DNA from: Funiculus sociatus GB2-C1
GTDB lineage: Bacteria; Cyanobacteriota; Cyanobacteriia; Cyanobacteriales; FACHB-T130
Assembly: GCF_039962115.1 (NCBI RefSeq)
Contig: NZ_JAMPKJ010000012.1
Span: forward strand, 1 to 64,000
DNA length: 64,000 bases
Reading direction: 5' to 3'
Both the position numbers and the translations under genes were made by a program. Positions 25,085 to 44,090 of this stretch are shown one piece after another. Within the stretch, counting starts at the first letter, position 1. The number at the start of each line of letters is the position of its first letter. The notes under the pieces are model-generated. The model made no database searches and had not been told where the DNA came from. It saw only the letters and a list, made by a program, of their open reading frames with translations.

Positions 25085-25444
25085 TTACTCAAAATCAGGA
25101 GTCAGTGCAGGATTGGGTAACGGGTTTGTCACCACTTTCGACTCAGCATTTTCCTGCTCTAGTTCATTAATCTGACGATAAAATTTTTGGAGATAATTCA
25201 AATCACAAGCGAAAAAACCTTCAACAACTGAAGGCGTAACCTCTTCCAAGGCTCCCAATCGAACGATCACGCGGGCTAAAATAATTACTGTAGCGTAAGC
25301 AGGATTTGATTTAACGCGAGGGTCGCGCAAGGGGACAATTTCGTCCATTGCTCTCGACAAACGCATTACGCCTTTGCGGTGAATGTTGCCATCACTATCG
25401 AGATACCCCTTTGGCAAAGTAAATTCAAACTCAGTTTGAATCAT
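25085..25444 (-). CDS. CIS/phage tail assembly chaperone-like protein (paralogue)
   Basis: The 119-residue protein is a clear paralogue of the downstream gene, sharing EFEFTLPKGYLDSDGNIHRK, GVMRLSRAMDEIVPLRDPRV and the helix block RLGALEEVTPSVVEGFFACD. It lacks the C-terminal CxxC and ends in an acidic and proline-rich tail. It overlaps the end of the tube/adaptor gene (25431-25937) by 14 bp and is followed 9 bp later by its paralogue, so it is certainly in the same operon. The likely role is in assembling or chaperoning inner-tube or tape-like components. Confidence 0.75.
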   Translation of the reverse strand: MIQTEFEFTLPKGYLDSDGNIHRKGVMRLSRAMDEIVPLRDPRVKSNPAYATVIILARVIVRLGALEEVTPSVVEGFFACDLNYLQKFYRQINELEQENAESKVVTNPLPNPALTPDFE

Positions 25445-25937: not shown

Positions 25938-26047
25938 AGTTGATACCGCCTTACAACCAATTCACTTTCTATTATATAAATCACTGACTGGTGAAATGGA
26001 GCGCGATCGCATCTCACCAGAGCAGTTTTACATTGAGTATATTCTTT

Positions 26048-26548: not shown

Positions 26549-26652
26549 AAATAACCTTCCAATCGATTACAAAGTACCAAGAAATGATTGCGATCACTTC
26601 TTAAAGCGAACAAAATTAAGAGTATTGTCTCAAACACCCAGACTTAGATAGA

Positions 26653-27123
26653 TCAAGCTGGATCGAATTGGTCAACCTGTAGCGTAAAGGTCTCTTCAAG
26701 CAACCCACCGTCTGCACTGAGTTTCCCGATTTGATATTTACAAATCCAAACTCCGCTCATCTTCCACGAATCCACCATTTCACCGGCTGAGTTATAGGAT
26801 TTAATTACGCCTTCTGCCATCCTGGCGCTCGTGGGAAACCCCCCACCATCCTCTGCTTTTGGCATACACTGTAACAGCCACTTTCTCATCAGCGAGCTAG
26901 TGCTTTTTGCATCTCCACTAGCTAGGGTTACTAAAGTGATTTGAACCGCTGCTTCCCTTTTCTTAGTAAGAGTCTGCCGTACAGAGCCCTTGGCACCTGA
27001 CATTAGGGCATCACCATGTTGAACGTCAGTCTTATAAGCTGGCAAGTCAACACTTTTAAACTGTAGACCGTCACCGACTCCCTTGATTTCTAATTCAAAA
27101 TTCTCAACTGTAATAATAGCCAT
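26653..27123 (-). CDS. CIS inner tube protein (second gp19/Hcp-like copy)
   Basis: The 156-residue protein has a tube-like beta core with VENFELEIKGVGDGLQFKSV, a middle segment QTLTKKREAAVQITLVTLAS, a helix ending RKWLLQCMP, and the strands KMSGVWICKYQIGKL and ETFTLQVDQFDPA. It is encoded directly after the sheath gene, the place usually held by the main tube protein (Cis1), so it is the best candidate for it. A ribosome site on the minus strand (AGGAGG) lies close to the ATG at 27123. Confidence 0.8.
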   Translation of the reverse strand: MAIITVENFELEIKGVGDGLQFKSVDLPAYKTDVQHGDALMSGAKGSVRQTLTKKREAAVQITLVTLASGDAKSTSSLMRKWLLQCMPKAEDGGGFPTSARMAEGVIKSYNSAGEMVDSWKMSGVWICKYQIGKLSADGGLLEETFTLQVDQFDPA

Positions 27124-27206: not shown

Positions 27207-28925
27207 CTACTGGTTAGGAGACCACTGACTGATGCGGAAGATCACAAATTCCGCTGGTCGGACTGGACAGACACCAATTTCGACATACAGACGACCCAGC
27301 ATTATTGTCTCGTGGGTGTTGATACTGGCATCGCACTTCACGTAGAAGGATTCACCAGGCGAACCACCGAACAACGCCCCTGCACGCCACAGCCGTTCGA
27401 GGAAATTGCTAACTGTGCGGGTAACTCGCGCCCACAAATCTTGATCGTTAGGCTCGAACACAACCCACTGGGTACCGATTTCAATCGAGCGCTCGATGTA
27501 GCTAATCAGACGGCGGACGCTGATATAGCGCCACTGGACATTAGCGGGTTCTACCAGAGTGCGTGCGCCCCAAACTTGGAAGCCTCGGTTGTAGTTTGCG
27601 AAGTTGCGGATACAGTTAATCCCCACAGGGTTCAACAGTTCCTGTTCGCGGAAGTTAGTTTCGTAGGCTAAACCCAAGACACCGCGAGGAACTTCGTTGG
27701 CGGGTGCTTTGAAAACGCCACGAGTCTCATCGGTGCGGCACCAAATCCCCATCATGTGACCGCAGGGGGGAACCAAAATCGGTCGTCCGGCATTGCGTGG
27801 GTTCGCCACTTTAATCCAGGGATAATACAACGCCCCGAACATGGAACGACGATTAAAGTTATTTAACCACTGAGCTACGTGCTGAGGCTTTTGTTGCTCA
27901 GGGGGTACAGGCTCACCGCCTCCCTTGCAAGGTGGCGGGTCGAGAACTACCATGCGGTAGTTGGGGCTGGGTGCGTTGTTTTCGCACATACTAACCATCA
28001 TTTCCATGATGCCGTGAACCTGATCCAAATCCAGCAGACCGCGTTGGTATGCCAGCATTAAATCTGGACAAGCAATCATGGAAACTTCGTCAATTTCAAA
28101 AATCCCTTGTACGCCCGTGCGGTCATCACGCGCCCCATTCACATCCCGTGGAAAGCGCTCGCGGCTAGAAATGACGGGTGGAGGGCTGACTTCATAGGTG
28201 CCGTTGACAGGTCGCCGAGACAAGGGTTGCCCACTGGTGGACATATCGGTTACGGACAAAAATTGAGATGCCTGCTGGTCGCCGATACCTTCATTGATTG
28301 CAGTGACGACATAGGTACCGACTTGCGCCTCGACATCCGGGTTCATTGTCAGGTGGGTATACTCTTCGAGTTTCTCGCCACCGCGACTAATAATGACTTT
28401 AAAATATTCCCCTGTGTTGAGGGGGGGTTCTGCCTCTGGGTCTTCAGGGGCTTTGGGTTCATCGGGGAGGATTGAAACATTGACTCGTCCACCGGATAAG
28501 GCAAGAGCTGAGCTGTCATCCTCTTCGCCTTCCGATGGCTTAATAGCAAACATCAAAGAGGGACGATTTCCAGAGGTTCTAAGCTTTGTGGCTGTTTCCT
28601 CTGGTGCAGGTGGTTCTGAACCGGGGAGTTTGGTACCAATGCTAGTCACCCAACAGCGTCCACCGCCGTTCATAAACCAGCCATTGACGGCAAAGGGGAG
28701 ATAGGCGTTGAAATCTGTGTAACCATCGGAGCCTTGTTTGCCAAAATATTCTAGGAATTGGCTCCAATTGGTAATCATCATGGGTTTGAACAGTTCGGCA
28801 TCACCGCGTACATCTTCGGTAAAGCCAACAAACCCAGCAACACTCATACTTACGCCTTCAATCGGGCGGCTGCCACGGTCTACTTCTTCGACGTAGACAC
28901 CAGGAGCAAAATAATCCATCGGCAT
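27207..28925 (-). CDS. CIS tail sheath protein
   Basis: This is the contractile sheath subunit (Cis2-like) that surrounds the tube and drives firing. The 572-residue protein starts MPMDYFAPGVYVEEVDRGSR, the universal sheath N-terminus. A variable, likely surface-exposed domain covers about residues 110-270. The conserved C-terminal half has IACPDLMLAYQRG, YYPWIKVANP and the strand block FYVKCDASINTHETIMLGRL followed by EIGVCPVRPAEFVIFRISQ, which forms the intersubunit handshake. An operon continues with the tube genes. A DUF4255/Pvc16-like gene precedes it by 45 bp. Confidence 0.95.
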   Translation of the reverse strand: MPMDYFAPGVYVEEVDRGSRPIEGVSMSVAGFVGFTEDVRGDAELFKPMMITNWSQFLEYFGKQGSDGYTDFNAYLPFAVNGWFMNGGGRCWVTSIGTKLPGSEPPAPEETATKLRTSGNRPSLMFAIKPSEGEEDDSSALALSGGRVNVSILPDEPKAPEDPEAEPPLNTGEYFKVIISRGGEKLEEYTHLTMNPDVEAQVGTYVVTAINEGIGDQQASQFLSVTDMSTSGQPLSRRPVNGTYEVSPPPVISSRERFPRDVNGARDDRTGVQGIFEIDEVSMIACPDLMLAYQRGLLDLDQVHGIMEMMVSMCENNAPSPNYRMVVLDPPPCKGGGEPVPPEQQKPQHVAQWLNNFNRRSMFGALYYPWIKVANPRNAGRPILVPPCGHMMGIWCRTDETRGVFKAPANEVPRGVLGLAYETNFREQELLNPVGINCIRNFANYNRGFQVWGARTLVEPANVQWRYISVRRLISYIERSIEIGTQWVVFEPNDQDLWARVTRTVSNFLERLWRAGALFGGSPGESFYVKCDASINTHETIMLGRLYVEIGVCPVRPAEFVIFRISQWSPNQ

Positions 28926-28970: not shown

Positions 28971-29528
28971 TTATGAGTTATGAGTTTTGAATTCAAAACT
29001 CATAACTTTTTCTCGCTTCTTTACTACTTCTTTAGGTGTGTTCGGTTCTTGTAAGGTGAAGGGAACCGTCACTGTCACATATAAGGCTGGACGTAATGGG
29101 ACACCCAGCGCACTCCATAAAGCTGCTGCTTCAATAAAGCCAATGGCAGAAACAATCATTGACAAGTTGCCATGACCGCGTAGTGCTGGAACCAGCAACT
29201 CTTCTGCTATCGGGCGATGAGGCAACAGCATTGTTAATGCTTCTGAGAGTAGACGTTGTTCTCCCAAGGCGGTACAGTCCCAGGCACTCACCAGGAACGA
29301 GATATCAAACCATAAGGGGGAACCGTTAAGAGTGCCTGTATGCGTTTTTTCCGGGTTAAGCCTGCGGTCTACCTGACCGTTTTCCCCGATGTTGTAGCAG
29401 TACAGGTTCAGCGCTGGCCTTATATCCTGCCGCATACCAGGGTGGTTGAAATCTATTTGCTCTGTATTGAGCAGAGAAGTCCCGCCAGCCAGGATTTCTG
29501 CCAAAGTCTGGGCAGTAGCAGGGATCAT
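28971..29528 (-). CDS. Pvc16-like (DUF4255) CIS tail terminator/cap protein, short form
   Basis: The 185-residue protein is of the Pvc16 N-terminal/DUF4255 type, which in PVC-like systems caps or terminates the tail. Marks are IPATAQTLAEILAGGTSLLN, LYCYNIGENGQVDRR, and WFDISFLVSAWDCTALGEQR-like strands followed by LLSEALTMLLPHRPI. It heads the minus-strand arm of the locus. A second, longer protein of the same type is at 31798-33138 in the other arm. The C-terminus ends in VVKKREKVMSFEFKTHNS, a basic tail without further domain. Confidence 0.82.
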   Translation of the reverse strand: MIPATAQTLAEILAGGTSLLNTEQIDFNHPGMRQDIRPALNLYCYNIGENGQVDRRLNPEKTHTGTLNGSPLWFDISFLVSAWDCTALGEQRLLSEALTMLLPHRPIAEELLVPALRGHGNLSMIVSAIGFIEAAALWSALGVPLRPALYVTVTVPFTLQEPNTPKEVVKKREKVMSFEFKTHNS

Positions 29529-29773
29529 AAGACTAGATAGATGCTTAGGCTGTATAGGTCTAGATTAGGTAGACACATCTAGAGTGTTTATTAGACTTTG
29601 GTCGAAACTTTAAAAATTGTGTGTAAATACGCGTATTTACGGAACTCTGGGACTAAGCTAGATGAGTCATTTACTTCTCAGGGATGATGACAAGTTCCGC
29701 AGGCTGAATGCCCTACTGGGTGCTGCACCCTATTCCACACTGCTGATTTATCGTGTATGTCGGGGAGTTACAG
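29529..29773. promoter_or_regulatory. Divergent promoter region of the CIS locus
   Basis: A 245-bp gap separates the start of the minus-strand structural arm from the histidine kinase gene on the plus strand. All genes on both sides read outward, so both arms' promoters probably lie here. It contains the 18-bp palindrome listed separately and two TCTAGA hexamers at about 29559-29582. Confidence 0.6.
29623..29640. promoter_or_regulatory. 18-bp perfect palindrome, candidate operator
   Basis: GTAAATACGCGTATTTAC is perfectly self-complementary over 18 bases and lies near the middle of the divergent region between the two CIS arms. A site of this size suits a dimeric DNA-binding protein; the LuxR-type regulator encoded 1.4 kb away is the obvious candidate, but this is inference. 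Confidence 0.5.
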
Positions 29774-30919
29774 ATGAAGGTTGGTATACAAAAGTTGGTT
29801 CGCGAGGTGCGTCCACCTACCTCCACAATCGGTTCACTGGGTACACCGTCGTCTGCCGATGTTAGAAGTATTTGCAAGCTGCATATTGAACAGTTAGCGG
29901 TGCAAGTGCCGATTGTGGCAGCTTGGATTGTCTACGAGGATTCTGATACGGGGATGCGCCAATTTGTTGCTCATTATACACAGCAGCAGGGCAGTATTTA
30001 CGCAGGCTTTCCCCATCCCCTTTCTGTGGTGTGGTGGGAAGATTGGTTGCCAGATGCGATCGCGCGTGTATTTACCCCGCGTCGGGATACGGTACCATGT
30101 CCCTACAATGCTTATGTTTGCGCTCTTAGTCAGCATAGCTCTAGGCCTGAGTATCTAATGCTATGGAGCGAATATTCTCTATCTGTTCATCAGCAGGAGT
30201 GTATAGAGCAACAAGCTCAACTACTTAGTCACTACTTGGCTATGTTTCGCGAGTGTTCTCGTCAAAAAGCTGAGATTCAGTTACTTGAGCAAGTGTTACG
30301 CCGTGCAGAACATCAACTGCGAAATCCTTTAGCACTGATTAGTCTTTATTCGGAAAATTTATGCCGGGGGTTGCAATCTGGAGGCTTGCAAGAACAGGCT
30401 ACGATTATTCGGGAAACTGTGGATGATTTGAGTGCTAATTTAACAGATTTGGTTTACTGTGGACAGCAGGCAAAATTGCGCGTAGCGCCTTATGACCTGC
30501 GGGAAATTTTATCTGACAGCATTCAGGGTTTGCAACCGTGGTTAGAGGAAAAACAAGTAGATATCTGCTATCCGGATAAACCTGTGATTGTGGCGTTGGA
30601 TCGGTGGCAGATGAAGCAGGTTTTTGACAACTTGTTAAGTAATGCAATTCATTTTAGTCCGGAAGGAGGGGTAGTTACTTGCAACTGGCAAGTTTTTGCA
30701 ATGGAAGTGATAGTTGAAGTGAGCGATCGCGGGAGCGGACTTTCCCAAGAAGACCTGAAACAAGTATTTACACCGTTCTACTCTAAGCGTCCGGGTGGTA
30801 CAGGTTTGGGGCTAGCGATCGCTAAAAAAATTATCCTCGACCATAAAGGGAGCATTTGGGTAGAAAATCTCTCAGTCGGCGGCGCACAATTTTCGTTTAT
30901 TTTACCTCGAAATAATTAA
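29774..30919 (+). CDS. Sensor histidine kinase, CIS-linked
   Basis: The start at ATG 29774 (GGGGAG ribosome site upstream) gives 381 residues. An N-terminal sensor region (about 1-150) looks like a cytosolic GAF or DICT-type domain and shows no membrane segment. The phospho-accepting histidine is at about 180 in EHQLRNPLALI. The ATPase domain has the N-box FDNLLSNAIHFSP and G-boxes VSDRGSGL and GGTGLGLAIAKKI. The partner response regulator is 91 bp downstream. Being soluble, it probably reads an internal cue. Its place between the two arms of the injection system suggests it controls them. Confidence 0.9.
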   Translation: MKVGIQKLVREVRPPTSTIGSLGTPSSADVRSICKLHIEQLAVQVPIVAAWIVYEDSDTGMRQFVAHYTQQQGSIYAGFPHPLSVVWWEDWLPDAIARVFTPRRDTVPCPYNAYVCALSQHSSRPEYLMLWSEYSLSVHQQECIEQQAQLLSHYLAMFRECSRQKAEIQLLEQVLRRAEHQLRNPLALISLYSENLCRGLQSGGLQEQATIIRETVDDLSANLTDLVYCGQQAKLRVAPYDLREILSDSIQGLQPWLEEKQVDICYPDKPVIVALDRWQMKQVFDNLLSNAIHFSPEGGVVTCNWQVFAMEVIVEVSDRGSGLSQEDLKQVFTPFYSKRPGGTGLGLAIAKKIILDHKGSIWVENLSVGGAQFSFILPRNN

Positions 30920-31010: not shown

Positions 31011-31685
31011 ATGAATAACCAGCCAATTTCTATTTTGTTAGTGGATGATGAACCACGCTTTCGTCAAGGGTTAAGAACTTTACTAGGATTCTTAGGTACT
31101 AACGACTCTTTAAAATTCGATGTTGTTGGCGAAGCTGCTAGTGTAGAGCAAGCATTAAAATTAACTGTAGAACAAAAACCAGCGATGATTTTGCTGGATA
31201 TGGAATTGCCACCAGGGGATGGAATTACTGCCTTGCTGAGTCTCAGAGAAATGTCCTATAAAGGGAAAGTGCTGGTTCTCTCAGGACATCGGGAAGACGA
31301 ATGGGTATTTCGAGCAATGCAAGCAGGTGCTTGCGGCTATGTGTTTAAAGATCGCGTAGCTACCCAACTGTGTGAAGCAATTACCACAGTAATGAAAGAA
31401 GAAGTGTATTTATCGCCAGAAGTTGCAACCTGCTTTTTCCGTTTGTTTAACTTTTATGCAGGGCGCTCGTTGAGCGCAGGTAAAGCTATTCACCTAACTG
31501 AACGAGAGCAAGAAGTTCTACACTGGTTAGTTGAAGGATCTTCAAATGAAGAAATTGCCCGGCATCTTTACATCACAGTTGCTACAGTCAAAGCTCACCT
31601 GACAGCTATATTTGAAAAATTAAGTGTCACGAGTCGCACACAAGCAATTGTAAAAGCCTTAAAACTTGGATTAGTTAGTGCTTAA
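31011..31685 (+). CDS. NarL/LuxR-type response regulator, CIS-linked
   Basis: The 224-residue protein has a receiver domain (about 6-130) with acidic pocket VDDE (11-14), the phospho-acceptor Asp63 in ILLDMELPPGDG, and the conserved lysine in FKDRVA. The C-terminal GerE/LuxR helix-turn-helix spans about 158-222 with LTEREQEVLHWLVEG and IARHLYITVATVKAHL. It forms a pair with the histidine kinase upstream. The likely target is the divergent region at 29529-29773, where an 18-bp palindrome lies. Confidence 0.92.
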   Translation: MNNQPISILLVDDEPRFRQGLRTLLGFLGTNDSLKFDVVGEAASVEQALKLTVEQKPAMILLDMELPPGDGITALLSLREMSYKGKVLVLSGHREDEWVFRAMQAGACGYVFKDRVATQLCEAITTVMKEEVYLSPEVATCFFRLFNFYAGRSLSAGKAIHLTEREQEVLHWLVEGSSNEEIARHLYITVATVKAHLTAIFEKLSVTSRTQAIVKALKLGLVSA

Positions 31686-31797: not shown

Positions 31798-33138
31798 ATG
31801 AGCAATTACTTAGCGATCGCTACTGTCACCGCTGCCTTGCAAAGAACTTTGCAGGCTGTAGTACAAGTAGACGTAGATGGCGCAAGAGTGACAATGGTAC
31901 GACCTAGTAACTTGGGGAGTGGCACGCCAGAAACAGGAGTGAATCTGTATCTTTATCAAGTGACGCTCAATTCCGTGTGGCGAAACAACGCTGATGTGCG
32001 GAATCGCAACCGTAAAGGAGAAATGGCCAAGCGATCGCACAATGCCTTAGATTTGCATTACATGATCAGTTTCTATGGCAATGAAGTTGAGTTAGAACCG
32101 CAACGACTTTTAGGCAGCGTAGTCCGTACCCTCAAGGATCAATCGACTTTGACACAGGAGATGATTTGGGACACAATCGCCGATTCTAACTTTACCTACT
32201 TGGCTGACTCTAACCTCTCCGAACAGGTAGAAGAAATTGACTTTGTGCCGATGGATCTATCTTTAGAAGATTTATCCAAAGTTTGGTCGGTATTCTTTCA
32301 AACTCCCTACACCCTGTCAGTCGCCTACCGCGCTACTGTAGTGATAATCGAAGGGGAAGAGTCAGCCCAAAAAGCGCTACCAGTGCGCGACTACAACTTT
32401 AGCGGTGTGATGCCGTTCCCAAATCAGCCAGTGATAGATCGGGTTGTGTCCCAAGCTGGAAGGTTTCAGCCGATCTCGGCAGACAGCACATTGGTGATAT
32501 GGGGTAAGCATTTGAAGAGTAGTATTACTCAAGTGCGCTTGGGTGAGGTGGAGGTGACACCCTCAGAGGTTCAGGATAACCAGATTGTCTTGTCCCTCTC
32601 CTCGTTCCCTGCTTCTTCCCTACAGGCAGGTGTACAAAGTTTGCAGGTGATTCACCGCATCTCAACCGGGACAGAAGCAGTATCGATGGGAGTTGAGTCA
32701 GCAGCAACTTCTAGAGGCAACTCGACACCAACATTAAGCTTACAGCGAAGTCTCCAACGCGGTGTGGAGTCAAATGTTGCACCTTTTGTGCTGCGTCCAA
32801 CCATAACAGAGGTTAGCGTCTCAAATATACAAGAAAGTAGAGATGAGTTGCACTCAGCTGATGTGATAGTGCAAGTCAATGTCACCATTGGCAACAAGCA
32901 GCGAGTGGTTATGGCGCTGAATGAACGGTCAATTAATAATCCTGTGGCTTATCTTTTCGATGCCTTGCCACGTCGAAATGATACTAACCTGGTGACTGTT
33001 CCGGTGCGAGATGTGAAGCCTGGGGAGTATCTGGTGCGTTTGCACGTAGATGGGGCAGAAAGTCTGCTGAGTGTAGATATGGACAAGGGCAGCCCAACAT
33101 TTCAGCAGTTTATTAGTCCGAAGGTAATAATTTCATGA
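31798..33138 (+). CDS. Pvc16-like (DUF4255) CIS tail terminator/cap protein with IPT-like C-terminal domain
   Basis: The 446-residue protein starts with a DUF4255/Pvc16 N-terminal domain (about 1-190): VTAALQRTLQAVVQVDVDGA, NLYLYQVTLNSVWRN and LDLHYMISFYGNE. The middle region (about 200-290) resembles an IPT/TIG beta-sandwich (LVIWGKHLKSSITQVRLGEV). The C-terminal third is beta-rich. Its stop overlaps the start of the AAA+ ATPase by ATGA (33135-33138), so the two are translationally coupled, as expected for the CIS terminator and its ATPase. Confidence 0.82.
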   Translation: MSNYLAIATVTAALQRTLQAVVQVDVDGARVTMVRPSNLGSGTPETGVNLYLYQVTLNSVWRNNADVRNRNRKGEMAKRSHNALDLHYMISFYGNEVELEPQRLLGSVVRTLKDQSTLTQEMIWDTIADSNFTYLADSNLSEQVEEIDFVPMDLSLEDLSKVWSVFFQTPYTLSVAYRATVVIIEGEESAQKALPVRDYNFSGVMPFPNQPVIDRVVSQAGRFQPISADSTLVIWGKHLKSSITQVRLGEVEVTPSEVQDNQIVLSLSSFPASSLQAGVQSLQVIHRISTGTEAVSMGVESAATSRGNSTPTLSLQRSLQRGVESNVAPFVLRPTITEVSVSNIQESRDELHSADVIVQVNVTIGNKQRVVMALNERSINNPVAYLFDALPRRNDTNLVTVPVRDVKPGEYLVRLHVDGAESLLSVDMDKGSPTFQQFISPKVIIS

Positions 33139-35117
33139 ATGTCACGGCTACTAACAACTTGCAGCAAGCTAACCAGCACTCCTTGATGGCAGCACTGGCT
33201 CCGGTGCATCAAGCGTTACAACGTCAAGCGCGGCTGGCGCAAGGGAAGCCGGACAAGGAACAGGAGGAAGAATATTTTTCGCCTCGAAATGGGCTTTCGC
33301 CTCATGGGGCATTGGAGAAGCTTTGCACAACTTTTGGGCTGTCGGATTTTGAGCGGGATGTGCTGCTGTTGTGCGTTGGGATGGAACTTGATGCTAGTTG
33401 GGCTAGCTTGTGCGCGATCGCTCAAGGTGTCCAAGAGCGGGTGTATCCTACTTTTAGTTTGGCTCTAACAATTTTACCAAACCCGGAATGGAGTGCTTTA
33501 ACGCCTAACGCTCCTTTACGTCGGTGGCGGCTGCTTGAAGTTGGATCGGGGAATGCACTCACCACTGCACCCCTGCGAATTGACGAGCAGATACTGCACT
33601 ATATTGCTGGCGTGCAGCATCTCGATGAGCGACTGATGGGCATTGTGGAGCCTGTCGCCGCTGTTAACATTTTAGTGCCGTCGCACCATCAACTAGCTCA
33701 AAGGCTTGCTCAGACATGGGTTGAGGCATCACAGGAAGCGGTTTTACCGATTATCTGTTTGTGTGGCGACGACGTTGCCAGTATGCAAGCGATCGCTTTG
33801 AAAGCCTGCGAACTTTTAGAAATGAATCTGAACGCCATCTTTGCCAGCACTGTTCCCACTGGCATCAACGAACTTAATAACCTAATGCGACTGTGGGAAC
33901 GGGAAGCTGTTTTGAGTAATAGTGTGCTGTTACTGGAATGGGACGAAACCGATGCAGGGGAGGGACTGCGAGAAAGCGCGATCGCAACTATGGTAGAGCG
34001 CATCCGTTCTCCATTGGTAATTATCAGTCGCGATCGCCGCAAACAACGTCAGCGTCCCCTAATCGCCATTGAAGTTCCCAAAGCAACCCCGAACGAACAG
34101 CGAGCAATTTGGCAAGCTGCCTTGGGCGATGCAGCCATTAGCTTAAACGGACACGTCGAAACCTTAGTTTCCCATTTCACCCTCAGCGCCACCACAATTT
34201 ACGCTGCTTGTGCAGAAGCAAAAGGAAAGCTTGCAACTCAGGCAGAAGCAGAATCCCCGATTCACAATCAATTATGGGATACTTGCCGCATTCAAGCGCG
34301 ATCGCGTCTCAATGACCTGGCTCAACCGATTATCCCAGGAGCCAGTTGGGATGAGCTAGTATTGCCAGAGACACAACGCCAAGTTCTGCGCGATATTGCC
34401 GCCCACGTCCGCCAACGCGCCAGGGTTTACGAAAGTTGGGGATTTGCCGGGAAAGGCGGACGCGGCTTAGGCATCAGCGCTTTATTTGCTGGTGCCAGCG
34501 GTACAGGTAAAACAATGGCAGCAGAGGTAATAGCTGGAGAATTGCGGCTAGACCTTTACCGCATTGACTTGAGTTCCGTCATCAGCAAATACATCGGCGA
34601 GACAGAGAAGAACTTGCGGCGCGTATTTGACGCTGCTGAAGCTGGTGGGGCAATTCTGCTATTCGATGAAGCTGATGCTTTATTCGGCAAGCGTTCTGAG
34701 GTCAAAGACAGCCACGACCGTCATGCCAATATTGAAGTCAGCTACCTGTTACAGCGTATGGAATCATACCGAGGTTTGGCAATTCTCACCACCAATCTAA
34801 AAGGTTCGCTGGATCAAGCTTTTCTGCGCCGGATTCGTTTTATCGTCCAATTTTCCTTCCCTGATGCTAATCAGAGAGCCGAAATATGGCAACGCATCTT
34901 TCCCAGTAAAACACCAACACAGGGGCTAGAGGCACGTAAATTGGCACAGTTGAATGTCGCTGGCGGTAACATCCGCAATATTGCTTTGAATGCAGCTTTT
35001 ATCGCAGCTGATGCGGGGGAGGCTGTGGGTATGAAACACGTTTTACAAGCTGCCAAGAGCGAATATGTAAAGCTAGAAAGACCTCTGACGGATACGGAAG
35101 TGAAAGGCTGGGTGTAA
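33135..35117 (+). CDS. AAA+ ATPase of the CIS (Cis15-like)
   Basis: The 660-residue protein carries one complete AAA+ module: Walker A GASGTGKT at about residues 453-460, Walker B ILLFDEADALFG near 505-516, sensor-1 AILTTNLKGSLDQAF, and an arginine-finger region FLRRIRFIVQFSFP. The N-terminal 400 residues hold a second, degenerate module (IICLCGDDVASM is the place of a lost P-loop). PVC-, Afp- and tCIS-type loci all encode such an ATPase, thought to help assembly or effector loading. Its start overlaps the stop of the Pvc16-like gene. Confidence 0.9.
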   Translation: MNVTATNNLQQANQHSLMAALAPVHQALQRQARLAQGKPDKEQEEEYFSPRNGLSPHGALEKLCTTFGLSDFERDVLLLCVGMELDASWASLCAIAQGVQERVYPTFSLALTILPNPEWSALTPNAPLRRWRLLEVGSGNALTTAPLRIDEQILHYIAGVQHLDERLMGIVEPVAAVNILVPSHHQLAQRLAQTWVEASQEAVLPIICLCGDDVASMQAIALKACELLEMNLNAIFASTVPTGINELNNLMRLWEREAVLSNSVLLLEWDETDAGEGLRESAIATMVERIRSPLVIISRDRRKQRQRPLIAIEVPKATPNEQRAIWQAALGDAAISLNGHVETLVSHFTLSATTIYAACAEAKGKLATQAEAESPIHNQLWDTCRIQARSRLNDLAQPIIPGASWDELVLPETQRQVLRDIAAHVRQRARVYESWGFAGKGGRGLGISALFAGASGTGKTMAAEVIAGELRLDLYRIDLSSVISKYIGETEKNLRRVFDAAEAGGAILLFDEADALFGKRSEVKDSHDRHANIEVSYLLQRMESYRGLAILTTNLKGSLDQAFLRRIRFIVQFSFPDANQRAEIWQRIFPSKTPTQGLEARKLAQLNVAGGNIRNIALNAAFIAADAGEAVGMKHVLQAAKSEYVKLERPLTDTEVKGWV

Positions 35118-35405: not shown

Positions 35406-35615
35406 TTACAACCCAGGAATTTCTGATAATTCACCCTCCAATTCTTCCACAACAAAGCCAGTAACCGCATTCCATTCTTCCACGGTGAAGCTATAGCCAG
35501 ATTCTTCAGCCATCTTGACAAATGCTTCCAAATTAGGTGCAGAGTTAAGCTTCTCCTTTAAAGCCGGGTCAGCTTGAACAGCTTTGAAAAGTTTTGTAAC
35601 TTCTTCTTTTGCCAT
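35406..35615 (-). CDS. Nif11-type leader peptide, apparently without a core
   Basis: The 69-residue protein matches Nif11-like RiPP leader peptides: MAKEEVTKLFKAVQADPALK, then LEAFVKMAEESGYSFTVEEW and the helix VVEELEGELSEIPGL. Such leaders normally end ELS-x-x-x-L-x-x-V-x-GG, followed by a modified core. Here the protein stops right after ELSEIPGL, so no core peptide is visible. It could be a stand-alone Nif11-domain protein, a degenerate precursor or a leader acting in trans. It lies on the minus strand inside the plus arm of the CIS locus and may be unrelated to it. No modifying enzyme is nearby. Confidence 0.75.
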   Translation of the reverse strand: MAKEEVTKLFKAVQADPALKEKLNSAPNLEAFVKMAEESGYSFTVEEWNAVTGFVVEELEGELSEIPGL

Positions 35616-35830: not shown

Positions 35831-38188
35831 GTGGCGCTGACAAACATTCCCAAAATTTTACTTAGAGAGTATCTGAGCAGAAATGCACCTCCAATCAGGC
35901 TTACCCAATACAATTGGTTAAGCCGATACCAATGGCTGGCACCAATAGTTGATGAAATCAAAACCGAACTAGATCCGCCAACCCCAGAAGAACAAACCGC
36001 CCTTGTTGACGCACCGCCACAATTTACCGCGCCAGTCCACTCATTTGAATCCCACTACTCAATTGAATCCCACTACAGATACTATCGTTGCAAGTATAGC
36101 GATCCCTTAGCCTGTAACTTGCCGCAACAGACCCTCCAGCGAGAGCCAACAGCCAAGTATTGTTTAGAATGCGGTTTTCCAGCTACCTTACCGGAAAAAA
36201 GTGAAATTCGGGGACGGCGCGGCAGATATCGAGTAGAAACTTTAGTCGGAAAGCGCGGTATGGGCCGTCTGTACCAGGGAACCCAACTTTCCGATCAGCA
36301 GCCGATTGTCATTAAAGAATACCTGCTCCCCAACCGTTCCTTCAGCCAAGAAGAAACCCGCCAGCGCAAGCAAACCTTTGAGCTAGTAGCAGGTTTGAGT
36401 CTAGCAGATGGAAGAGTTCAGGATTTGCGCCTGCGTCAGCCTTGGGATGCCATTTCTGACGGGCTTGAGGAACGCTGCTACCTCATTACCAACGGCAATT
36501 TAGATACATCCCCAACCCTCAGCGCCTACCTGTCCGCCAGTGGTGCGATGACCAGTTGGCAAGTGCGCCTAGTTCTCAACCAAGTGTTGCAAACCCTGGA
36601 ATCTCTCCACGGTCAAAAGTTTAGCCTGCCTTCCGGCCAGGTGCAGCAGGGAATGGCTCATGGCAATATCAGCCTTGATAGTTTGCTATACGTAGGAGAC
36701 AAGGAGAAATTTTTTATACATCTGTGCGACTTGGCTCTCTGGGAACGCTTGTTTGAGCCGCCAAACACCGAAATCATTATTCCCATGCCTGCCCAAGATT
36801 TAGTAGCATTGGGATATGTGGGCTTTTACCTGTTGGTAGGGCGATCGCTTGACCCTTCCCATCAGCTTATTGACCCCAGAGATGAGCGACAATGGCCTCC
36901 CGTAGAGCCTCACCTGAAGACGTTTATCCTTCGTCTTATCGGGCTAGATGTGACTTTTGAAAGTGCCGAAGAAGCGCGACTCGCTCTATTGAAATTGCCC
37001 CCAGATCAACATATTGATATTTTAGTTGTAGAAACAGCGTCACCAGAAGACGACCAAGCCAAGCTGCGTCGCCCTCCCTACTGGCTCTTTGGTATCCTGG
37101 GATTGAGTTTGTTAGGAATATTTGTTTGGGCGCTAATCCCCAAATCCCAAGCCGGAAATCTTACCGATAACGACTTTCTAACTTGCTGCATCAAGGACAT
37201 CTCTGCTATTCCTGGTGGTAAATTTAATTACACAGCGGAAGAAGCGGGAACCTGGAGCTATATACTGCGACACGCAAACATAATATCCCAGGATAAAACT
37301 TTAGAAGAAAAGCTCCTAGAACGTCAGCCAAAATTACAGCTAAATTATCAACCAGAGCCTTCAGGAGAAGCAGCAATAGCAAAAGTAATGTCCGGAAAAG
37401 CAAACTTTGCCATCTCCGGTCTGGTTAATGAATTGGCACCAGAGCTGAAATCGAAAGAAGTTGCCTATGATGGTTTGGTAGTGTTTGTTGCCTTCAGCTA
37501 TGCCAAAAGGGATAAGAGCCTTCCACAGGCTTTAAAAGGGCAGATTACTTTTGAGCAATTGCGTAAACTCTACACAGGCGAAATTACAAGCTGGAAACAG
37601 CTAGGCGGCCCCGATATACCAGTAAGACTTTATATTCCCAAAGAAACTGAGGCAGTACGAATCTTTGAGCAACGAGTCCTCAAAAATGACCAAGAAATTG
37701 CTTTATTTAGAAGATTAATTCAAAAAGGCGAGCAGCCACCACCTTTGTTTAAAAATCCGTACGCGCAAGAAATTAAACAGATGTCCACTTTTGAGACTCT
37801 GCGACAGGTGATTCGAGATTTCGAGGATGATGAAGTTGGGGGAATTGCTTTTGGTACGCTCAGCAAAGTTTTCGGTCAATGTTCAGCTTATCCTCTGGCT
37901 TTAATAGATAAAAATAAGACGGCGGTACAGGCTTTAATTCAAGACAACGGTAATCCCGTAAATCCCACAACAGACTTGTGCGATGATAAAGGAAGTTATC
38001 GCCCTAACGTCGAAGTTTTCAGAAATAGAAGCTATCCCTTGGGATATCCCATTGCTGTAGTTTATTCTGGAGATAACAGTCGTCCCCCGGTCGGTCAAAA
38101 GTTTGCTGAGCTACTGAGAACCCGCGAAGCACAACGCCTGCTAAGTAAAGCAGGCCTGGTGCCTTTGCAACCGCTACCACCAAATTAA
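35831..38188 (+). CDS. Pseudokinase - transmembrane - phosphate-binding-protein-like fusion, CIS-linked
   Basis: GTG 35831, preceded by GGAGAG, opens a 785-residue protein. Residues 85-117 carry four cysteines (RCKYSDPLAC, KYCLECGFP) that could form a zinc ribbon. A kinase-like domain (about 128-395) keeps the VIKEY lysine but has MAHGNISLDSLL in place of the HRD loop and no DFG, so it is probably inactive. One membrane segment (WLFGILGLSLLGIFVWALIP) is at about 418-437. The remainder (about 440-785) is a PstS-like periplasmic-binding fold with ISGLVNELAP and TFEQLRKLYTGEITSWKQLG. Predicted orientation puts the kinase-like part in the cytoplasm and the binding domain outside or in the lumen. 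Confidence 0.82.
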   Translation: MALTNIPKILLREYLSRNAPPIRLTQYNWLSRYQWLAPIVDEIKTELDPPTPEEQTALVDAPPQFTAPVHSFESHYSIESHYRYYRCKYSDPLACNLPQQTLQREPTAKYCLECGFPATLPEKSEIRGRRGRYRVETLVGKRGMGRLYQGTQLSDQQPIVIKEYLLPNRSFSQEETRQRKQTFELVAGLSLADGRVQDLRLRQPWDAISDGLEERCYLITNGNLDTSPTLSAYLSASGAMTSWQVRLVLNQVLQTLESLHGQKFSLPSGQVQQGMAHGNISLDSLLYVGDKEKFFIHLCDLALWERLFEPPNTEIIIPMPAQDLVALGYVGFYLLVGRSLDPSHQLIDPRDERQWPPVEPHLKTFILRLIGLDVTFESAEEARLALLKLPPDQHIDILVVETASPEDDQAKLRRPPYWLFGILGLSLLGIFVWALIPKSQAGNLTDNDFLTCCIKDISAIPGGKFNYTAEEAGTWSYILRHANIISQDKTLEEKLLERQPKLQLNYQPEPSGEAAIAKVMSGKANFAISGLVNELAPELKSKEVAYDGLVVFVAFSYAKRDKSLPQALKGQITFEQLRKLYTGEITSWKQLGGPDIPVRLYIPKETEAVRIFEQRVLKNDQEIALFRRLIQKGEQPPPLFKNPYAQEIKQMSTFETLRQVIRDFEDDEVGGIAFGTLSKVFGQCSAYPLALIDKNKTAVQALIQDNGNPVNPTTDLCDDKGSYRPNVEVFRNRSYPLGYPIAVVYSGDNSRPPVGQKFAELLRTREAQRLLSKAGLVPLQPLPPN

Positions 38189-38480: not shown

Positions 38481-38494
38481 GGAGGATAATTTTG

Positions 38495-39085
38495 ATGGCA
38501 CTTCCATTGCCACAATCACAGCCATCTGTGTCAAATCAGAATAACGGACAGAATAAAAATGGCACAAGCACTCGCGAACTGAACTACGTTACAGCCAATC
38601 GCTTTTATGTAGAAATTCAGAGTAACATTACTGCCTGTTTCACAGAGTGCCAAGGCTTGGGTGTCACTATAAAAGCTGAAAAACGTTTGGAAGGTGGTGT
38701 CAACGACCAACAGAGAATTATTCTGGGTCAGGCAGAATTTTCTGATGTGACGCTCAAACGTGGCATCACAAATGATTTAACCTTCTGGAATTGGATTAGT
38801 AAAATATTGAGCGATGTTGGACGCAATAAAGGTAATAATTTGCCGAAAAAAGAACGCCGCAACGTCAATATTCTAGTTTTTAACCAGGCAGGAGAAACGA
38901 TGCAGTGTTGGACGCTAATCGGTGCCGTTCCGGTTTCTTGGAAAGCACCAGCATTAAACGCCGATTCTGGCACAGTGGCTATTGAAGAGTTGACTCTAGC
39001 ATACGAAAGTTTGCAAGTTGATAACTCCCGTGCTGGCGGCTCCTCGATTTCTGGCGGACGCGATAAATTGGGATACTTCGCCTAG
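38495..39085 (+). CDS. CIS tail tube/adaptor protein (gp19-like), second arm
   Basis: The start at ATG 38495 follows a strong AAGGAGG site. The 196-residue protein has a disordered Asn/Gln-rich N-terminus (about 1-30) and then a gp19-like tube domain: NRFYVEIQSNITACFTECQG, ISKILS preceded by LKRGITNDLTFWNWI, and the C-terminal APALNADSGTVAIEELTLAY. It is a paralogue of the 25431-25937 protein and probably forms an adaptor ring between tube and spike or baseplate. The glycine/serine-rich tail (RAGGSSISGGRDKLGYFA) is unusual. Confidence 0.85.
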   Translation: MALPLPQSQPSVSNQNNGQNKNGTSTRELNYVTANRFYVEIQSNITACFTECQGLGVTIKAEKRLEGGVNDQQRIILGQAEFSDVTLKRGITNDLTFWNWISKILSDVGRNKGNNLPKKERRNVNILVFNQAGETMQCWTLIGAVPVSWKAPALNADSGTVAIEELTLAYESLQVDNSRAGGSSISGGRDKLGYFA

Positions 39086-39101: not shown

Positions 39102-42100
39102 ATGGCGGAAATTCAAGACACCCACCCCCATAACAATCTTCCCAATGGAGAAACAACATCCCAGGAACCCCTTGGTTTCAAAAATCCCTTGCTTCCAGCT
39201 AATCCATTAGGACAAAATTTCATTAGCCGGAAATTTCTCTATCCGCTGGGAGCAAGGGCAATTACAGCATTTGATCCTTCGGTATTTTTTTCCCGTGAAA
39301 TGCCGGATGAAGTGCCGCCGGACAATCCATTTGACAATTCACCCTTTTTCGCCGAATCCCAAGCCTCACAGTTGAGTAAATCGGTTGCAGCCTCTGATGG
39401 CATTACGTCAGCAGCAGCACCACCAGTCGTCGCGCAGCTAAAAGAATCCACGCTAATACAACCTCGATTGGAAACCGAAAAACCAGCTTCGAGGGCAGAA
39501 GTAATTAAGCCTGTAACTACACCGCAAGTAACTTATAAGATTAATCAAGGCAAGGAAGACAATTCCGGCCTTTTGTCTTCTACCACCACGCTTTCGGAAA
39601 TGCTGCCAGCTACGATTACCGAAGTAACTCAAATACAACCACGATTAGAAAGTCAAATATCAACTTACAACTCTGAAGTAAGTCAGTCAATAACTGCACC
39701 ACAAGTAGCTTCTATAACTCAAGAAAAACAAGAATTCGATCCTGCGACAACGCAGCAAGTTAGGATTATAGACGGAACTCAAATACAACCGCGTTTAGAA
39801 AATCAAATATCAACTGACAACCCTGAAGTAAGTCAGTCAATAACTGCACCACAAGTAGGTTCTATAGCTGAAGAAAAACAAGAATTAGATCCAGCGATAG
39901 TGCCGCAAATTACGACTACCGAAGCAACTCAAATACAACCGCGATTAGAAAGTAAAACACCAAATACAACCGAAGCAATTGAGTCGGGAATTACACGACA
40001 AGAAACCTTAGCGGTACCAAAAGCAGCAGAAGAAATTACAGATTCTCAGTCAGAATTTGTAGCCTTAGATTCTGTCACAAAGTCAGAGGAAACCCCACAA
40101 GTTACCACTACAGATGCAACTCAAATACAACCGCGGTTAGAAAGTGAAATATCAGCTGACAACCCTGAAGTAGCTCAGTCAATAACTGCACTAGAAGTAG
40201 CTTCTATAACTCAAGAGAAACAAGGATTCGACCCTGCGACAACGCCGCCAGCTACGACTACCGATGCAACAATCGTACAAGCGTTTAAAGAAAGTAAACC
40301 ACAACCTGGAAACCGTGAAGTAATTGAGCCAATAACTTTACCAGAACTATCTTCTATAACTCAAGAGAAACAAGAATTCGACCCTACGACGACAACGCCG
40401 CAAGTTACGATTACAGACGCAGCTCAAATACAACCGCGATTAGAAAGTCAAATATCAACTGAGAACTCTGAAGTAATTCAGTCAATAACTGCACCACAAG
40501 TAAATTCTGGAATAACTCAAGAGAAAGAAGCATTCGCACCAACCATAAGTCCGGAAGTTACGATTACAGACGCAACAATTGTACAAGCGTTTAAAGAAAG
40601 TAAAACAGAACCTGATAACTTTGAAGAAATTGACACAGGGTCTGCACTAGAAGTAATAGAAAAAACAACTCAAGAGGAAGAAAAATTCGCAACTCTACCT
40701 TCTTCTACCACGCTTTCAGAAACGCCGGAAGTTACGATTACAGACGCAACAATACAACCGCGATTAGAAGAACAAACACAATTTATTAAAACAGAAGGAC
40801 TTGAGTCATTAACAGTAACTTCACTACAAGTAGCTGCGGAAGTAACTCAAGAAGAAGTAAAATTCGCACCAAGGACAACGCCGCAAGTTACAATTACAGG
40901 CGCAACGCAAATACAACCGCGATTAGAAAGTCAAATATCAACTGACAACACAGAAAAAATTGAGTTAGTAGCTGTACCGCAAGTAGCTGATGAAGTAACT
41001 CAAGAGAAGGAAGATTTCGCACCAGCGATAACGCCGCAAGTTACGATTACAGACGCAACCCAAGTACAAACGTTTAAAGAAACAGAAAGACCAACTATAA
41101 AAACTGAAGGAATTGAGTCAGTAGCTGCGCCACAAGTAGCTGATGAAGTAACTCAAGAGAAGGAAGATTTCGCACCAGCAACAACGCCACAAGTTACGTT
41201 CGCAGATGCAATAGAAGGTCAAATATCGGCTGAGAATACAGAGGAGATTGAGTCATTAACAGTAACTTCACCACAAATAGCTGAGGGAGTAACTCAAGAG
41301 AAAGAAGAATTCGCACCAGCAACAACGCCGGAAGTTACGATTACAGACGCAACGGTACAACCGCGGTTAGAAAGTAAAATATCAGATGAGAACGCAGAAC
41401 AAGTTGAGTCAGGAACTGCACCAGAGGTAAATTATCTAACAACTCAACCGAAGGAAGAATTCGCACCAGCAACAACGCCGGAAGTTACGATTACAGACGC
41501 AACGGTACAACCGCGATTAGAAAGTAAAATATCAGTTGAGAATACAGAAGGAATTGAGTCAATAGCTGCACCAGAACTAGCTGATGAAGTAACTCAGCAA
41601 AAAGTAGAATTTGTACCAGCAAAAACGCCGGAAGTTACGATTGCAGACGTAGCTCAAGTACAAGCGTTTAAAGAAACACCAACTACAAAAGCTGGAGGAA
41701 TTGAGTCAGTAATTGCCCTTAAAGTAGCTTCGGAAGCAACTCAAGAGAAAGAAGCATTTGCCTCCGTAACAACGCCGGAAGTTACGATTGGAGACACAAC
41801 GGGACAACCACGATTAGAAAGTAAAATACTAACTACAAAAACTGAAGGAATTGAGCCGGGAACTTCACCACAAGTAGCTTCTAAAGTAAATGAGGCTCAG
41901 TCAGAACTCGGAGCTTTAGCTTCTGTCACAATGCCAGAGGAAACGCCGCAAGTTACGACAACAAACTCAATTCAAGTACAAGCGCAATTAGAAACTCAAA
42001 CACCAGCTACAACCGAAGGAATTGAGCGGGAAACTACACCAGACGCAGCACCCTTACCACTACAGCCAGCCGCAGAACAAACGAGTGAGGTAGCAGTGTT

Positions 42101-43418
42101 GTCAAACGTTACGGAACCGATGCCGTTTTCTGTAAGCCGGAAGGTAGAATCGGTAGAAATGCCAGCGATCGCTTCTGAGAAAACGCTTACCCAATCAGAC
42201 ATCACAGCCCCTTCTCTGGCATCTTCTGTCACGACACCAGATGTTCCGCTTGTACAACTTCTATCGGAACAGGAACCCAGGAAGGCAACAGAAGAAGCGG
42301 TTTCAGAAATCAATGCACCTTCTTCTGTTGTACCGATACCGACTCAACTGCATGAAAATTCGGATCTTCGGGTAGAGGAAGCGATCGCTCCCATATCCTC
42401 TGACACTTCTAACAAACAGGTGTCAAAAATTACAACGAATACCGAAATGGGCGTTGTACAACCTCTGTTAGATAACCAGTTGTCTGCACAATCCCAGGTG
42501 CCAACAGCTAGGGAAGATTTGGCTGACAAGGTGGAAGAAGCTGCACCCATATCTTCTGCCACAGATAACAAACAGGTGTCAGAAAGTACGCCCAATACAC
42601 AAGCCAATATTGTCCAACCTTTAGGGGAAATAGAGCCTCGCCAGCAGATTGAAGAAATCCCTCAATTGCCTACAGTTTTGACAAATCTATCCATCCTCAG
42701 CCCATTAACTCAATCCAATTTGCTCGTTTCCAAATTTCCAGAACAGACAACTCTTAACGTTGAAGAATCCTTGCTCTCGCCTTCAAAGTTACCTGGGCGT
42801 ATCCAGAGAATGCCAGAGGAAGGGGATAAGGGACAAGAATTTGGCGACTCGGAAGTAAAGCCGACAATTCAAAGAAGCGTTTCTTCCTCCTTTGAAGAAA
42901 AATTGCGATCGCAACAGGCGGGAGATTTACCAGAATCCAACCAATCTTCAATCCCCTTAGCAAAAGATTCTGCGATCGCTAAAACTATACCCACATCATG
43001 GTCTAGCATCGCCGATTTAATAGGCGAGGCTACATCAGACTCAAGCAACTCAATGATTGTACAACCCCTCTTAGAGGAGAGGGGTTGGCAAGAGCCGATT
43101 ATTTCCTCGTCAGATTCCAGAAACTCTTACTCAACAGTTGATTCCCCACATACCGATAGGGCGAACGGTGTTATCCAAGCATATTCCAATACCTCCGGGC
43201 GCACATCAGCATCCGGGATGGAAGCTCTTAGACAGTTGATGGAATCATCTGGTGGTAGCAAAGTAGAGGCGCATCAGTCAGACGAAGATTTCTCAGAAGA
43301 CGAAGGAGTTGATAACCTGGAGATTTTGGCTCGTGAAATTTACAGTTTTATAAAGCAACGGTTGGAGATAGAACGAGAGCGTAGAGGGAACAACTACTCC
43401 GGTCGCCTGCCTTGGTAA
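39102..43418 (+). CDS. Giant repeat protein of the CIS operon (1,438 aa)
   Basis: The N-terminus (1-100) contains FKNPLLPANPLGQNFISRKF and an acidic, proline-rich stretch. Residues about 160-970 consist of about 16 copies of a Thr/Glu-rich repeat with a core of the form EVTITDATVQPRLESKI, at a period near 50 residues. A less regular region follows to about 1,370. The last 60 residues form a helix ending LAREIYSFIKQRLEIERERR and GNNYSGRLPW. C-terminal helices of this kind (LA-x-x-hy-x-x-hyRL-x-x-ERER) end proteins in many CIS loci. No signal peptide or membrane segment is visible. It could be a tape-measure, scaffold or cargo-related protein. Confidence 0.7.
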   Translation: MAEIQDTHPHNNLPNGETTSQEPLGFKNPLLPANPLGQNFISRKFLYPLGARAITAFDPSVFFSREMPDEVPPDNPFDNSPFFAESQASQLSKSVAASDGITSAAAPPVVAQLKESTLIQPRLETEKPASRAEVIKPVTTPQVTYKINQGKEDNSGLLSSTTTLSEMLPATITEVTQIQPRLESQISTYNSEVSQSITAPQVASITQEKQEFDPATTQQVRIIDGTQIQPRLENQISTDNPEVSQSITAPQVGSIAEEKQELDPAIVPQITTTEATQIQPRLESKTPNTTEAIESGITRQETLAVPKAAEEITDSQSEFVALDSVTKSEETPQVTTTDATQIQPRLESEISADNPEVAQSITALEVASITQEKQGFDPATTPPATTTDATIVQAFKESKPQPGNREVIEPITLPELSSITQEKQEFDPTTTTPQVTITDAAQIQPRLESQISTENSEVIQSITAPQVNSGITQEKEAFAPTISPEVTITDATIVQAFKESKTEPDNFEEIDTGSALEVIEKTTQEEEKFATLPSSTTLSETPEVTITDATIQPRLEEQTQFIKTEGLESLTVTSLQVAAEVTQEEVKFAPRTTPQVTITGATQIQPRLESQISTDNTEKIELVAVPQVADEVTQEKEDFAPAITPQVTITDATQVQTFKETERPTIKTEGIESVAAPQVADEVTQEKEDFAPATTPQVTFADAIEGQISAENTEEIESLTVTSPQIAEGVTQEKEEFAPATTPEVTITDATVQPRLESKISDENAEQVESGTAPEVNYLTTQPKEEFAPATTPEVTITDATVQPRLESKISVENTEGIESIAAPELADEVTQQKVEFVPAKTPEVTIADVAQVQAFKETPTTKAGGIESVIALKVASEATQEKEAFASVTTPEVTIGDTTGQPRLESKILTTKTEGIEPGTSPQVASKVNEAQSELGALASVTMPEETPQVTTTNSIQVQAQLETQTPATTEGIERETTPDAAPLPLQPAAEQTSEVAVLSNVTEPMPFSVSRKVESVEMPAIASEKTLTQSDITAPSLASSVTTPDVPLVQLLSEQEPRKATEEAVSEINAPSSVVPIPTQLHENSDLRVEEAIAPISSDTSNKQVSKITTNTEMGVVQPLLDNQLSAQSQVPTAREDLADKVEEAAPISSATDNKQVSESTPNTQANIVQPLGEIEPRQQIEEIPQLPTVLTNLSILSPLTQSNLLVSKFPEQTTLNVEESLLSPSKLPGRIQRMPEEGDKGQEFGDSEVKPTIQRSVSSSFEEKLRSQQAGDLPESNQSSIPLAKDSAIAKTIPTSWSSIADLIGEATSDSSNSMIVQPLLEERGWQEPIISSSDSRNSYSTVDSPHTDRANGVIQAYSNTSGRTSASGMEALRQLMESSGGSKVEAHQSDEDFSEDEGVDNLEILAREIYSFIKQRLEIERERRGNNYSGRLPW
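39600..42010 (+). repeat. About 16 coding repeats, 150-bp period
   Basis: The array lies inside the 1,438-aa protein gene. Two neighbouring units beginning near 41307 and 41457 are offset by exactly 150 bp and almost identical over more than 80 bases, so the latest duplications are recent. Length stays a multiple of three throughout, which shows selection for the open frame. Confidence 0.8.
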
Positions 43419-43562: not shown

Positions 43563-44090
43563 ATGTCCACTACTCGCCTAGTCAAAGCCAAACTTATTCC
43601 CAAGATTCCAGCGCAGGGTGTGGATACCATCGAATTTATGTTCAATCCCACCAAACTATCCTTCAATCGAAGCGTTCAAATTAATGCCTCTCAAGGAGCG
43701 CGGACTGGGAAGGGACTACCCAAAGTCAGCTTTCAAAGTATTGATCCTTACAAGCTCACCATCTCAGATATCCTGTTTGATACCTACGAAGAAGGCACAA
43801 GCGTTCTCTGGTACATCAACAAATTGAAAAAAGCTGTTGAGTTTCCCGATGGTCAAGAGGTTCCACCAGTCTATCTGTTTACTTGGGGCGCTCAGGAATA
43901 CTTGCGTTGCTTTGTGCAACAATTGTCCTACGAACTGACCATGTTTCTGCCTGATGGTACGCCCGTGCGTGCTTCGGCTAACTTGACACTCCACGAGGTT
44001 GATATACTTATACCCCCAGGTAATCCGGAGGCTCCTTCTAGTGTGAACCGCACCGGGGATAGTCGGGAAAACCGCAGCAATAATCAGTAG
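43563..44090 (+). CDS. Cis7-like CIS tube-cap/baseplate protein without LysM tail
   Basis: The 175-residue protein matches the CIS_tube domain found at the N-terminus of Afp7/Pvc7/Cis7: KAKLIPKIPAQGVDTIEFMF, the hallmark FNPTKLSFNR, and the block FVQQLSYELTMFLPDGTPVR. In most homologues a LysM domain of about 50 residues follows; here the protein ends in a polar tail, DSRENRSNNQ, with no LysM. It marks the last recognisable CIS gene of the plus arm. A ribosome site (TTAGGAGAAT) precedes ATG 43563. Confidence 0.85.
   Translation: MSTTRLVKAKLIPKIPAQGVDTIEFMFNPTKLSFNRSVQINASQGARTGKGLPKVSFQSIDPYKLTISDILFDTYEEGTSVLWYINKLKKAVEFPDGQEVPPVYLFTWGAQEYLRCFVQQLSYELTMFLPDGTPVRASANLTLHEVDILIPPGNPEAPSSVNRTGDSRENRSNNQ

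Follow-up and report, generated by a model that had tools for sequence, protein, structure and literature searches.

A dead kinase joined to a PstS-like domain: a candidate membrane receptor for the type IId CIS of cyanobacteria

A gene located among the CIS genes of Funiculus sociatus GB2-C1 encodes a protein in which a kinase-like domain without the catalytic aspartate is linked through one transmembrane helix to a PstS-like substrate-binding (PBP) domain. The protein is probably, with a probability of about 0.6, a membrane receptor and docking adaptor that is dedicated to the type IId CIS of cyanobacteria and works like CisA. A role as the cyanobacterial counterpart of CisA is the most likely one because the predicted layout and the CIS type are the same. 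The window, which is the whole analysed stretch of 64,000 nucleotides, contains the gene and its parts at the following positions (comparison loci are numbered with L, genomes with G and genera with g):

35831-38188, plus strand: pseudokinase-TM-PBP protein, 785 aa, the main finding
36089-36172, plus strand: four-cysteine stretch (Cys 87, 95, 111 and 114), possible zinc ribbon
36227-36994, plus strand: kinase-like domain, about residues 133-388, with HGN (277-279), DLA (300-302) and a kept lysine 162
37082-37138, plus strand: single transmembrane helix, residues 418-436
37217-38176, plus strand: PstS-like domain, predicted extracytoplasmic, about residues 463-782, with cysteines 684 and 717

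The open reading frame has a GTG start and no internal stops in the window translation. The start is plausible because the N-terminus can be aligned with that of the homologue at L034. The Pfam domain PBP_like_2 covers residues 493-760 (E 2.8e-9) and is matched by all 23 homologues. The kinase-like domain of the window copy alone is too diverged to pass (Pkinase, E 0.088); 21 of the 23 homologues match this family, with a best E of 1.9e-4. Structure prediction, which had been proposed as a check in the original prediction, recovered both folds. In the AlphaFold2 model, which was built on 23 sequences and has a pLDDT of 82, the kinase part matches Staphylococcus aureus PknB (TM 0.70 by target) and the PBP part matches a Vibrio cholerae phosphate receptor (1twy; TM 0.74).

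Exactly one transmembrane helix is found in each homologue, at the same place in all, so that the single membrane segment read from the window copy holds for the whole family. The positively charged flank of this helix is on the kinase side in 15 of 24 homologues and on the opposite side in 2, with ties in 7; by this positive-inside bias, the kinase-like domain is predicted to be cytoplasmic. Cysteines 684 and 717 of the PBP domain are invariant and likely form a disulfide. Taken together, the charge bias and the invariant cysteine pair fit a cytoplasmic kinase and a PBP domain in an outer, oxidising compartment. Many further residues are invariant across the PBP domain. The four-cysteine stretch before the kinase, which had been singled out earlier, is present in the window copy but is an optional element, kept in only 15-16 of the 23 homologues.

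The kinase-like domain does not retain the residues for ordinary catalysis. The HRD motif is HGN in 22 of 23 homologues and HGQ in the remaining one; the catalytic aspartate is thus present in none, and the Lys and Asn positions of the catalytic loop are likewise altered. The original prediction had reported the loss of both HRD and DFG. The first loss extends to all 23 homologues, but the DFG aspartate is retained in every one of them, within DLA in 16 and with the glycine left in one. The ATP-site (VAIK) lysine is retained in 20 of 23. From these motifs, ordinary catalysis is not expected, and nucleotide binding is still possible because the DFG aspartate and the ATP-site lysine are kept. 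The positional orthologue in G066 (L056) is strongly diverged and its kinase fold is not recognisable (model pLDDT 55.6, below 50 in that region), which suggests that the kinase domain may be dispensable. A membrane-protein pseudokinase is also known in Mycobacterium tuberculosis, and structures of this protein, MviN (Rv3910), are among the fold matches of the window protein. MviN is joined to a lipid flippase, has an FHA protein as binding partner and acts in cell-wall synthesis. Separately, the plasmid copy of Kovacikia minuta (L080 19941-22364) is interrupted by an in-frame stop near the beginning of the PBP domain and is either a decayed gene or a sequencing error.

The PBP domain retains its fold but not the phosphate site. 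The motifs GGST-W, GSG-GI, SSR and SR-GGT of aligned cyanobacterial relatives are replaced in the family, and the score against the NCBIfam PstS model TIGR02136 (37.6 bits) is far below the cut-off of 206.6 bits. Given this lack of conserved binding motifs, phosphate is an unlikely ligand, and on the pocket motifs and the NCBIfam cut-off it was rejected as the default ligand. The earlier description of a PstS-like domain is confirmed for the fold only. PBP domains of this kind are also fused to N-terminal CHAT or caspase domains in other cyanobacteria (L058 7979-10090, L059 1852-4020, L060 9758-11989, L064 7293-9416 and L062 6483-8549), which points to a broader group of death-type receptors whose outer part is substrate-binding. 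These proteins resemble the window protein in the cytoplasmic signalling domain, the one helix, the PstS-like outer domain and a common cysteine pair. They differ in the protease-type inner domain and in the larger number of PstS pocket motifs, and no link to type IId CIS was seen for them.

The CIS genes of the window are arranged in two divergent groups, one on the minus strand and one on the plus strand:

25431-27123, minus strand: three tube-type (gp19) genes, 26653-27123, 26048-26548 and 25431-25937
27207-28925, minus strand: sheath Cis2, most similar among solved structures to the S. coelicolor cytoplasmic CIS sheath (8bky)
28971-29528, minus strand: short Pvc16_N cap protein, most similar among solved structures to the S. 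coelicolor CIS cap (9gts)
29753-30919, plus strand: histidine kinase of a two-component pair, which adjoins the pseudokinase-PBP gene in several relatives
31011-31685, plus strand: LuxR/GerE-type response regulator
31798-33138, plus strand: long Pvc16_N cap-type protein
33135-35117, plus strand: AAA ATPase (Cis15-type)
35406-35615, minus strand: Nif11-like ORF; others at L041 9611-9892, L043 10953-11162, L050 11864-12112 and L079 2623-2832
38280-38480, plus strand: 66-aa ORF, conserved just downstream of the pseudokinase-PBP gene in many loci
38492-39085, plus strand: tube-type (gp19) protein, probably the tube initiator (Cis1b/Cis5)
39102-43418, plus strand: 1438-aa repetitive protein
43563-44090, plus strand: Cis7 (CIS_tube/LysM-type tube initiator)

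The gene had been placed inside the CIS operon. It does lie among CIS genes, but a gap of 713 bp, which holds the antisense Nif11 ORF, separates it from the AAA gene, and it is probably the first gene of a separate transcription unit that continues into the tube and Cis7 genes. Promoter and terminator scans found sites no more numerous than in shuffles. In many loci the tube-type (gp19) gene is the next structural gene. The baseplate genes of the same genome are located on another contig (L069).

Several further features of the locus were observed. The Nif11-like leader-peptide ORF lies just upstream of the pseudokinase-PBP gene, in divergent orientation, in several distant genomes, even at loci without nearby CIS genes, and a linked small peptide is possible. 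The repetitive protein (39102-43418, plus strand) has conserved ends and a length of 244-2533 aa among relatives; it may set length or act as a disordered filler in a CIS type that is said to lack a tape measure. A CHASE2-domain membrane protein (20737-23052, minus strand) lies beside the minus-strand CIS genes and is also found near CIS in L074 and L075.

The structural proteins indicate which CIS type is present. For the sheath, the score is 385 bits with the cytoplasmic CIS of S. coelicolor (8bky) and 169 bits with the thylakoid CIS of Anabaena (7b5h), both structures being attributed to these systems according to PMC10066040. Cis11 matches the Streptomyces particle 9gtp with 389 bits and has no Anabaena match. 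Cis12 matches 9gtp only, and the long Anabaena-type extension is absent from it because its 346 aa are too short to hold the extension. The short cap protein matches 9gts. By these comparisons, the window CIS is type IId, of the Streptomyces-like cytoplasmic subtype. The thylakoid-anchored CIS of the original prediction is thus not supported, since sheath, Cis11, Cis12 and cap are all nearest to the Streptomyces system, and an Anabaena thylakoid-type CIS was rejected on the sheath, Cis11 and Cis12 comparisons. Type IId particles of Streptomyces are free in the cytoplasm (PMC10066040) and mediate the death of the producer cell under stress.

The baseplate genes are followed by genes for two other one-pass proteins (L069 3517-6381 and 6471-8645, both minus strand). 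These proteins are Ig/PapD-like, and one has a WD40 propeller after the helix. Both were dropped as rival adaptors and are likelier cargo of the Sco4256 type, because of their Ig/PapD-like N-terminus and because Sco4256-like proteins have been reported in cyanobacterial type IId loci (PMC10020575). The pseudokinase-PBP protein itself could in principle be loaded in the tube and inserted into the membrane as an effector, as proposed for one-pass proteins of this type. One-pass proteins are known as Streptomyces-type cargo (PMC10066040) and the gene lies among structural genes, but the genome has the two separate Sco4256-like candidates, and the pseudokinase-PBP protein is without an eCIS_core domain, occurs once per CIS and co-varies with the sheath. 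A cargo role is therefore quite improbable.

Dedication of the gene to this CIS was examined in 386 cyanobacterial genomes, with other phyla sampled through plasmids only. The clear tier of the pseudokinase-PBP family comprises 22 genomes, as does that of the window-type sheath. Gene and cognate sheath occur together in 21 genomes, the gene only in 1, the sheath only in 1 and neither in 363 (Fisher p 2e-32, with species that are not independent). Among CIS-positive genomes alone the counts are 21/1/1/16 (Fisher p 7e-9), and none of the 16 genomes that carry other CIS types only has the gene. Co-occurrence with CIS genes, for which the original prediction had named chance level as its refutation, is thus far above chance. 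Presence and absence of gene and sheath also vary together inside the genera g6, g10, g16, g35 and g76, which argues that shared ancestry alone is not enough. There are two exceptions. G338 (L034, L073) has the gene and a complete baseplate operon; the cognate sheath and the main tube were not found in its one-contig genome. G066 has the sheath and, at the same position, the diverged gene described above (L056).

Plasmids and paralogues follow the same pattern. A full homologue is present in 3 of 72,556 plasmids (Kovacikia, Brasilonema and Pseudanabaena records), and the same three are the only ones with a high-identity sheath. G024 carries two CIS copies, and each pseudokinase-PBP copy shares its nearest genomes with its own sheath. 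The distances of gene and sheath are correlated over 22 pairs (Mantel r 0.83), and the correlation falls to 0.64 when the G024 copies are swapped. The pseudokinase-PBP gene is thereby near-restricted to type IId CIS carriers in cyanobacteria and plasmids, as CisA is to its CIS type. A near-identical copy (96%) in Trichocoleus sp. FACHB-40 was the sole match of a single-protein contig scan; a viral contig scan found no relatives, and a scan of phage records gave one weak match, to the PBP part only. An ordinary phosphate or kinase signalling gene might also have come to lie beside the CIS by chance, since both four-Cys kinases and domains of the PstS type are widespread in cyanobacteria. Such a coincidence is contradicted by the co-occurrence, the plasmid co-carriage and the co-inheritance of paralogues; it is scarcely credible and was rejected on the 386-genome counts and the G024 paralogue tracking.

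The gene is flanked at most loci by genes for the tube initiator, Cis7/Cis8 or the baseplate, by the sheath operon, by an HK-RR pair or by an eCIS_core effector gene. No CIS structural genes are found within about 10 kb of the gene at L043, L045, L050 and L055; L045 nevertheless retains the HK-RR pair and an FHA gene. The HK-RR pair adjoins or is near the gene in the window and at L044-L046, L048, L052 and L078, and the protein could accordingly be a solute receptor that feeds this pair and controls transcription of the CIS, not firing. However, many loci have no HK-RR next to the gene, the tube initiator is the most frequent structural neighbour, and regulators of the GerE type, in some cases accompanied by a histidine kinase, occur widely at CIS loci (PMC8213781). 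Regulation of expression is thus an improbable role.

The closest functional precedent is CisA (SCO4242), a one-pass protein with a cytoplasmic N-terminus and an extracytoplasmic solute-binding-like domain, which was not seen in the particle structure and is needed for contraction in Streptomyces cells and for CIS-mediated death (PMC12237407). Its homologues have been reported from actinomycetes only (PMC10020575), and cyanobacteria therefore lack a known adaptor. The pseudokinase-PBP protein is like CisA in its type IId CIS and its single helix and, if the orientation suggested by the charge bias and the outer cysteine pair is correct, would also resemble it in a cytoplasmic N-terminus, a cysteine-rich cytoplasmic stretch and an extracytoplasmic binding-like domain. 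Conversely, its pseudokinase takes the place of a disordered region in CisA, its outer part is a full PBP fold of 320 residues against about 150 residues in CisA, the gene position differs, and no common Pfam domain was found. In the S. clavuligerus cluster (L081), the protein at the cisA position has zinc ribbons, a helix and a short outer domain that matches F5/8C weakly and no PBP family, in a comparison made with Pfam only; a PBP fold is thus not evident in the outer part of CisA. On present evidence, which consists of sequence comparisons, the pseudokinase-PBP protein does not appear to be a member of the CisA family. No paper linking a CIS to a pseudokinase was found in the literature that was searched.

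Membrane attachment of a cyanobacterial CIS is known from Cis13/Cis12 of Anabaena. That CIS is of another type and attaches via the particle's own parts, and a kinase is unmentioned in the paper on it. By analogy with Cis13, the pseudokinase-PBP protein might be a constitutive tether that holds particles at the membrane without sensing anything, with a PBP domain that is a structural plug or binds a fixed envelope partner. A tether would be in line with the one transmembrane helix, the unconserved PstS ligand motifs and the lack of a recognisable tail-fibre gene among the CIS genes examined. The whole PBP fold, however, is kept with its invariant residues, which would be costly for a mere tether, and relatives of the type IId CIS float free in the cytoplasm (PMC10066040). 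A purely structural role is consequently unlikely, and a receptor that also docks the CIS is the preferred reading.

A link to FHA proteins is observed at six loci in all. A gene for a cysteine-rich FHA protein overlaps the pseudokinase-PBP gene at L044, L045, L046, L048 and L078 and follows it by 14 bp at L052; no FHA gene adjoins it in the window. Five Deinococcus plasmid CIS clusters of a related type (L082-L086) encode, next to the baseplate genes, a kinase-FHA-Ig protein of about 1600 aa; it carries HGN in four of the five and HGD in one, and has a single helix in the two that were checked. In all four clusters tested, the Cis12-type baseplate wedge protein (Tail_P2_I) has an N-terminal FHA domain. 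The Deinococcus proteins share with the window protein the one-pass kinase fold, the related CIS type and the involvement of an FHA domain; they differ in the fused FHA and Ig repeats, the lack of a PBP domain, the intact LKPEN and DFG, and the length. The two are linked by analogy of parts and position, and whole-protein homology is not claimed.

These arrangements recall PpkA of the T6SS threonine phosphorylation pathway (PpkA-Fha-PppA), a kinase with a helix and a periplasmic domain that binds baseplate proteins and Fha (PMC12607579). The N-terminal kinase fold, the one transmembrane helix, a predicted outer domain and the tie to a contractile machine are shared; a linked FHA gene accompanies the pseudokinase-PBP gene at six loci and not in the window. 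PpkA is, however, catalytically active and needs its activity, whereas the window protein and its homologues are without the catalytic aspartate; the PBP outer domain and the non-T6SS CIS are further differences, and no dedicated PP2C partner is shown. The analogy suggests that kinase-fold/FHA control may have arisen for non-T6SS machines as well. A more far-reaching proposal is advanced tentatively and is rather less than an even bet: type IId CIS, outside the T6SS, would be under the control of a membrane module of kinase fold and FHA whose evolution was separate from that of PpkA-Fha. In Deinococcus, FHA would be built into the baseplate wedge. In cyanobacteria, the kinase would have turned into a receptor that is purely a pseudokinase and has an outer domain for substrate binding, and firing would be gated by ligand-driven docking and not by phosphorylation.

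For the cyanobacterial receptor and adaptor, the following sequence of events is proposed. The extracytoplasmic PBP domain would bind a ligand or a protein, probably not phosphate, and the resulting change would be relayed through the single helix to the dead kinase domain, which is perhaps nucleotide-binding. The dead kinase domain would offer the CIS baseplate a surface to dock on, and in some species the phosphopeptide-binding FHA protein from the next gene would assist. Free CIS particles would thereby be recruited to the membrane and then fire. Of the earlier idea of a membrane anchor or trigger for a thylakoid CIS, the receptor role is thus carried forward by the co-occurrence and the analogy with CisA and PpkA, and the thylakoid setting is given up.

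CisA, reported from actinomycetes only, is the one factor known to be needed for free cytoplasmic CIS particles to be directed to the membrane and fired. A receptor-like gene that travels with the type IId CIS in cyanobacteria is a candidate for a second, unrelated solution, which suggests that the adaptor slot may be filled by different proteins in different phyla. It would also connect the firing of type IId CIS with the kinase/FHA control of type VI secretion. The outer domain can be expressed and screened for ligands, which would make the firing signal of an intracellular CIS testable.
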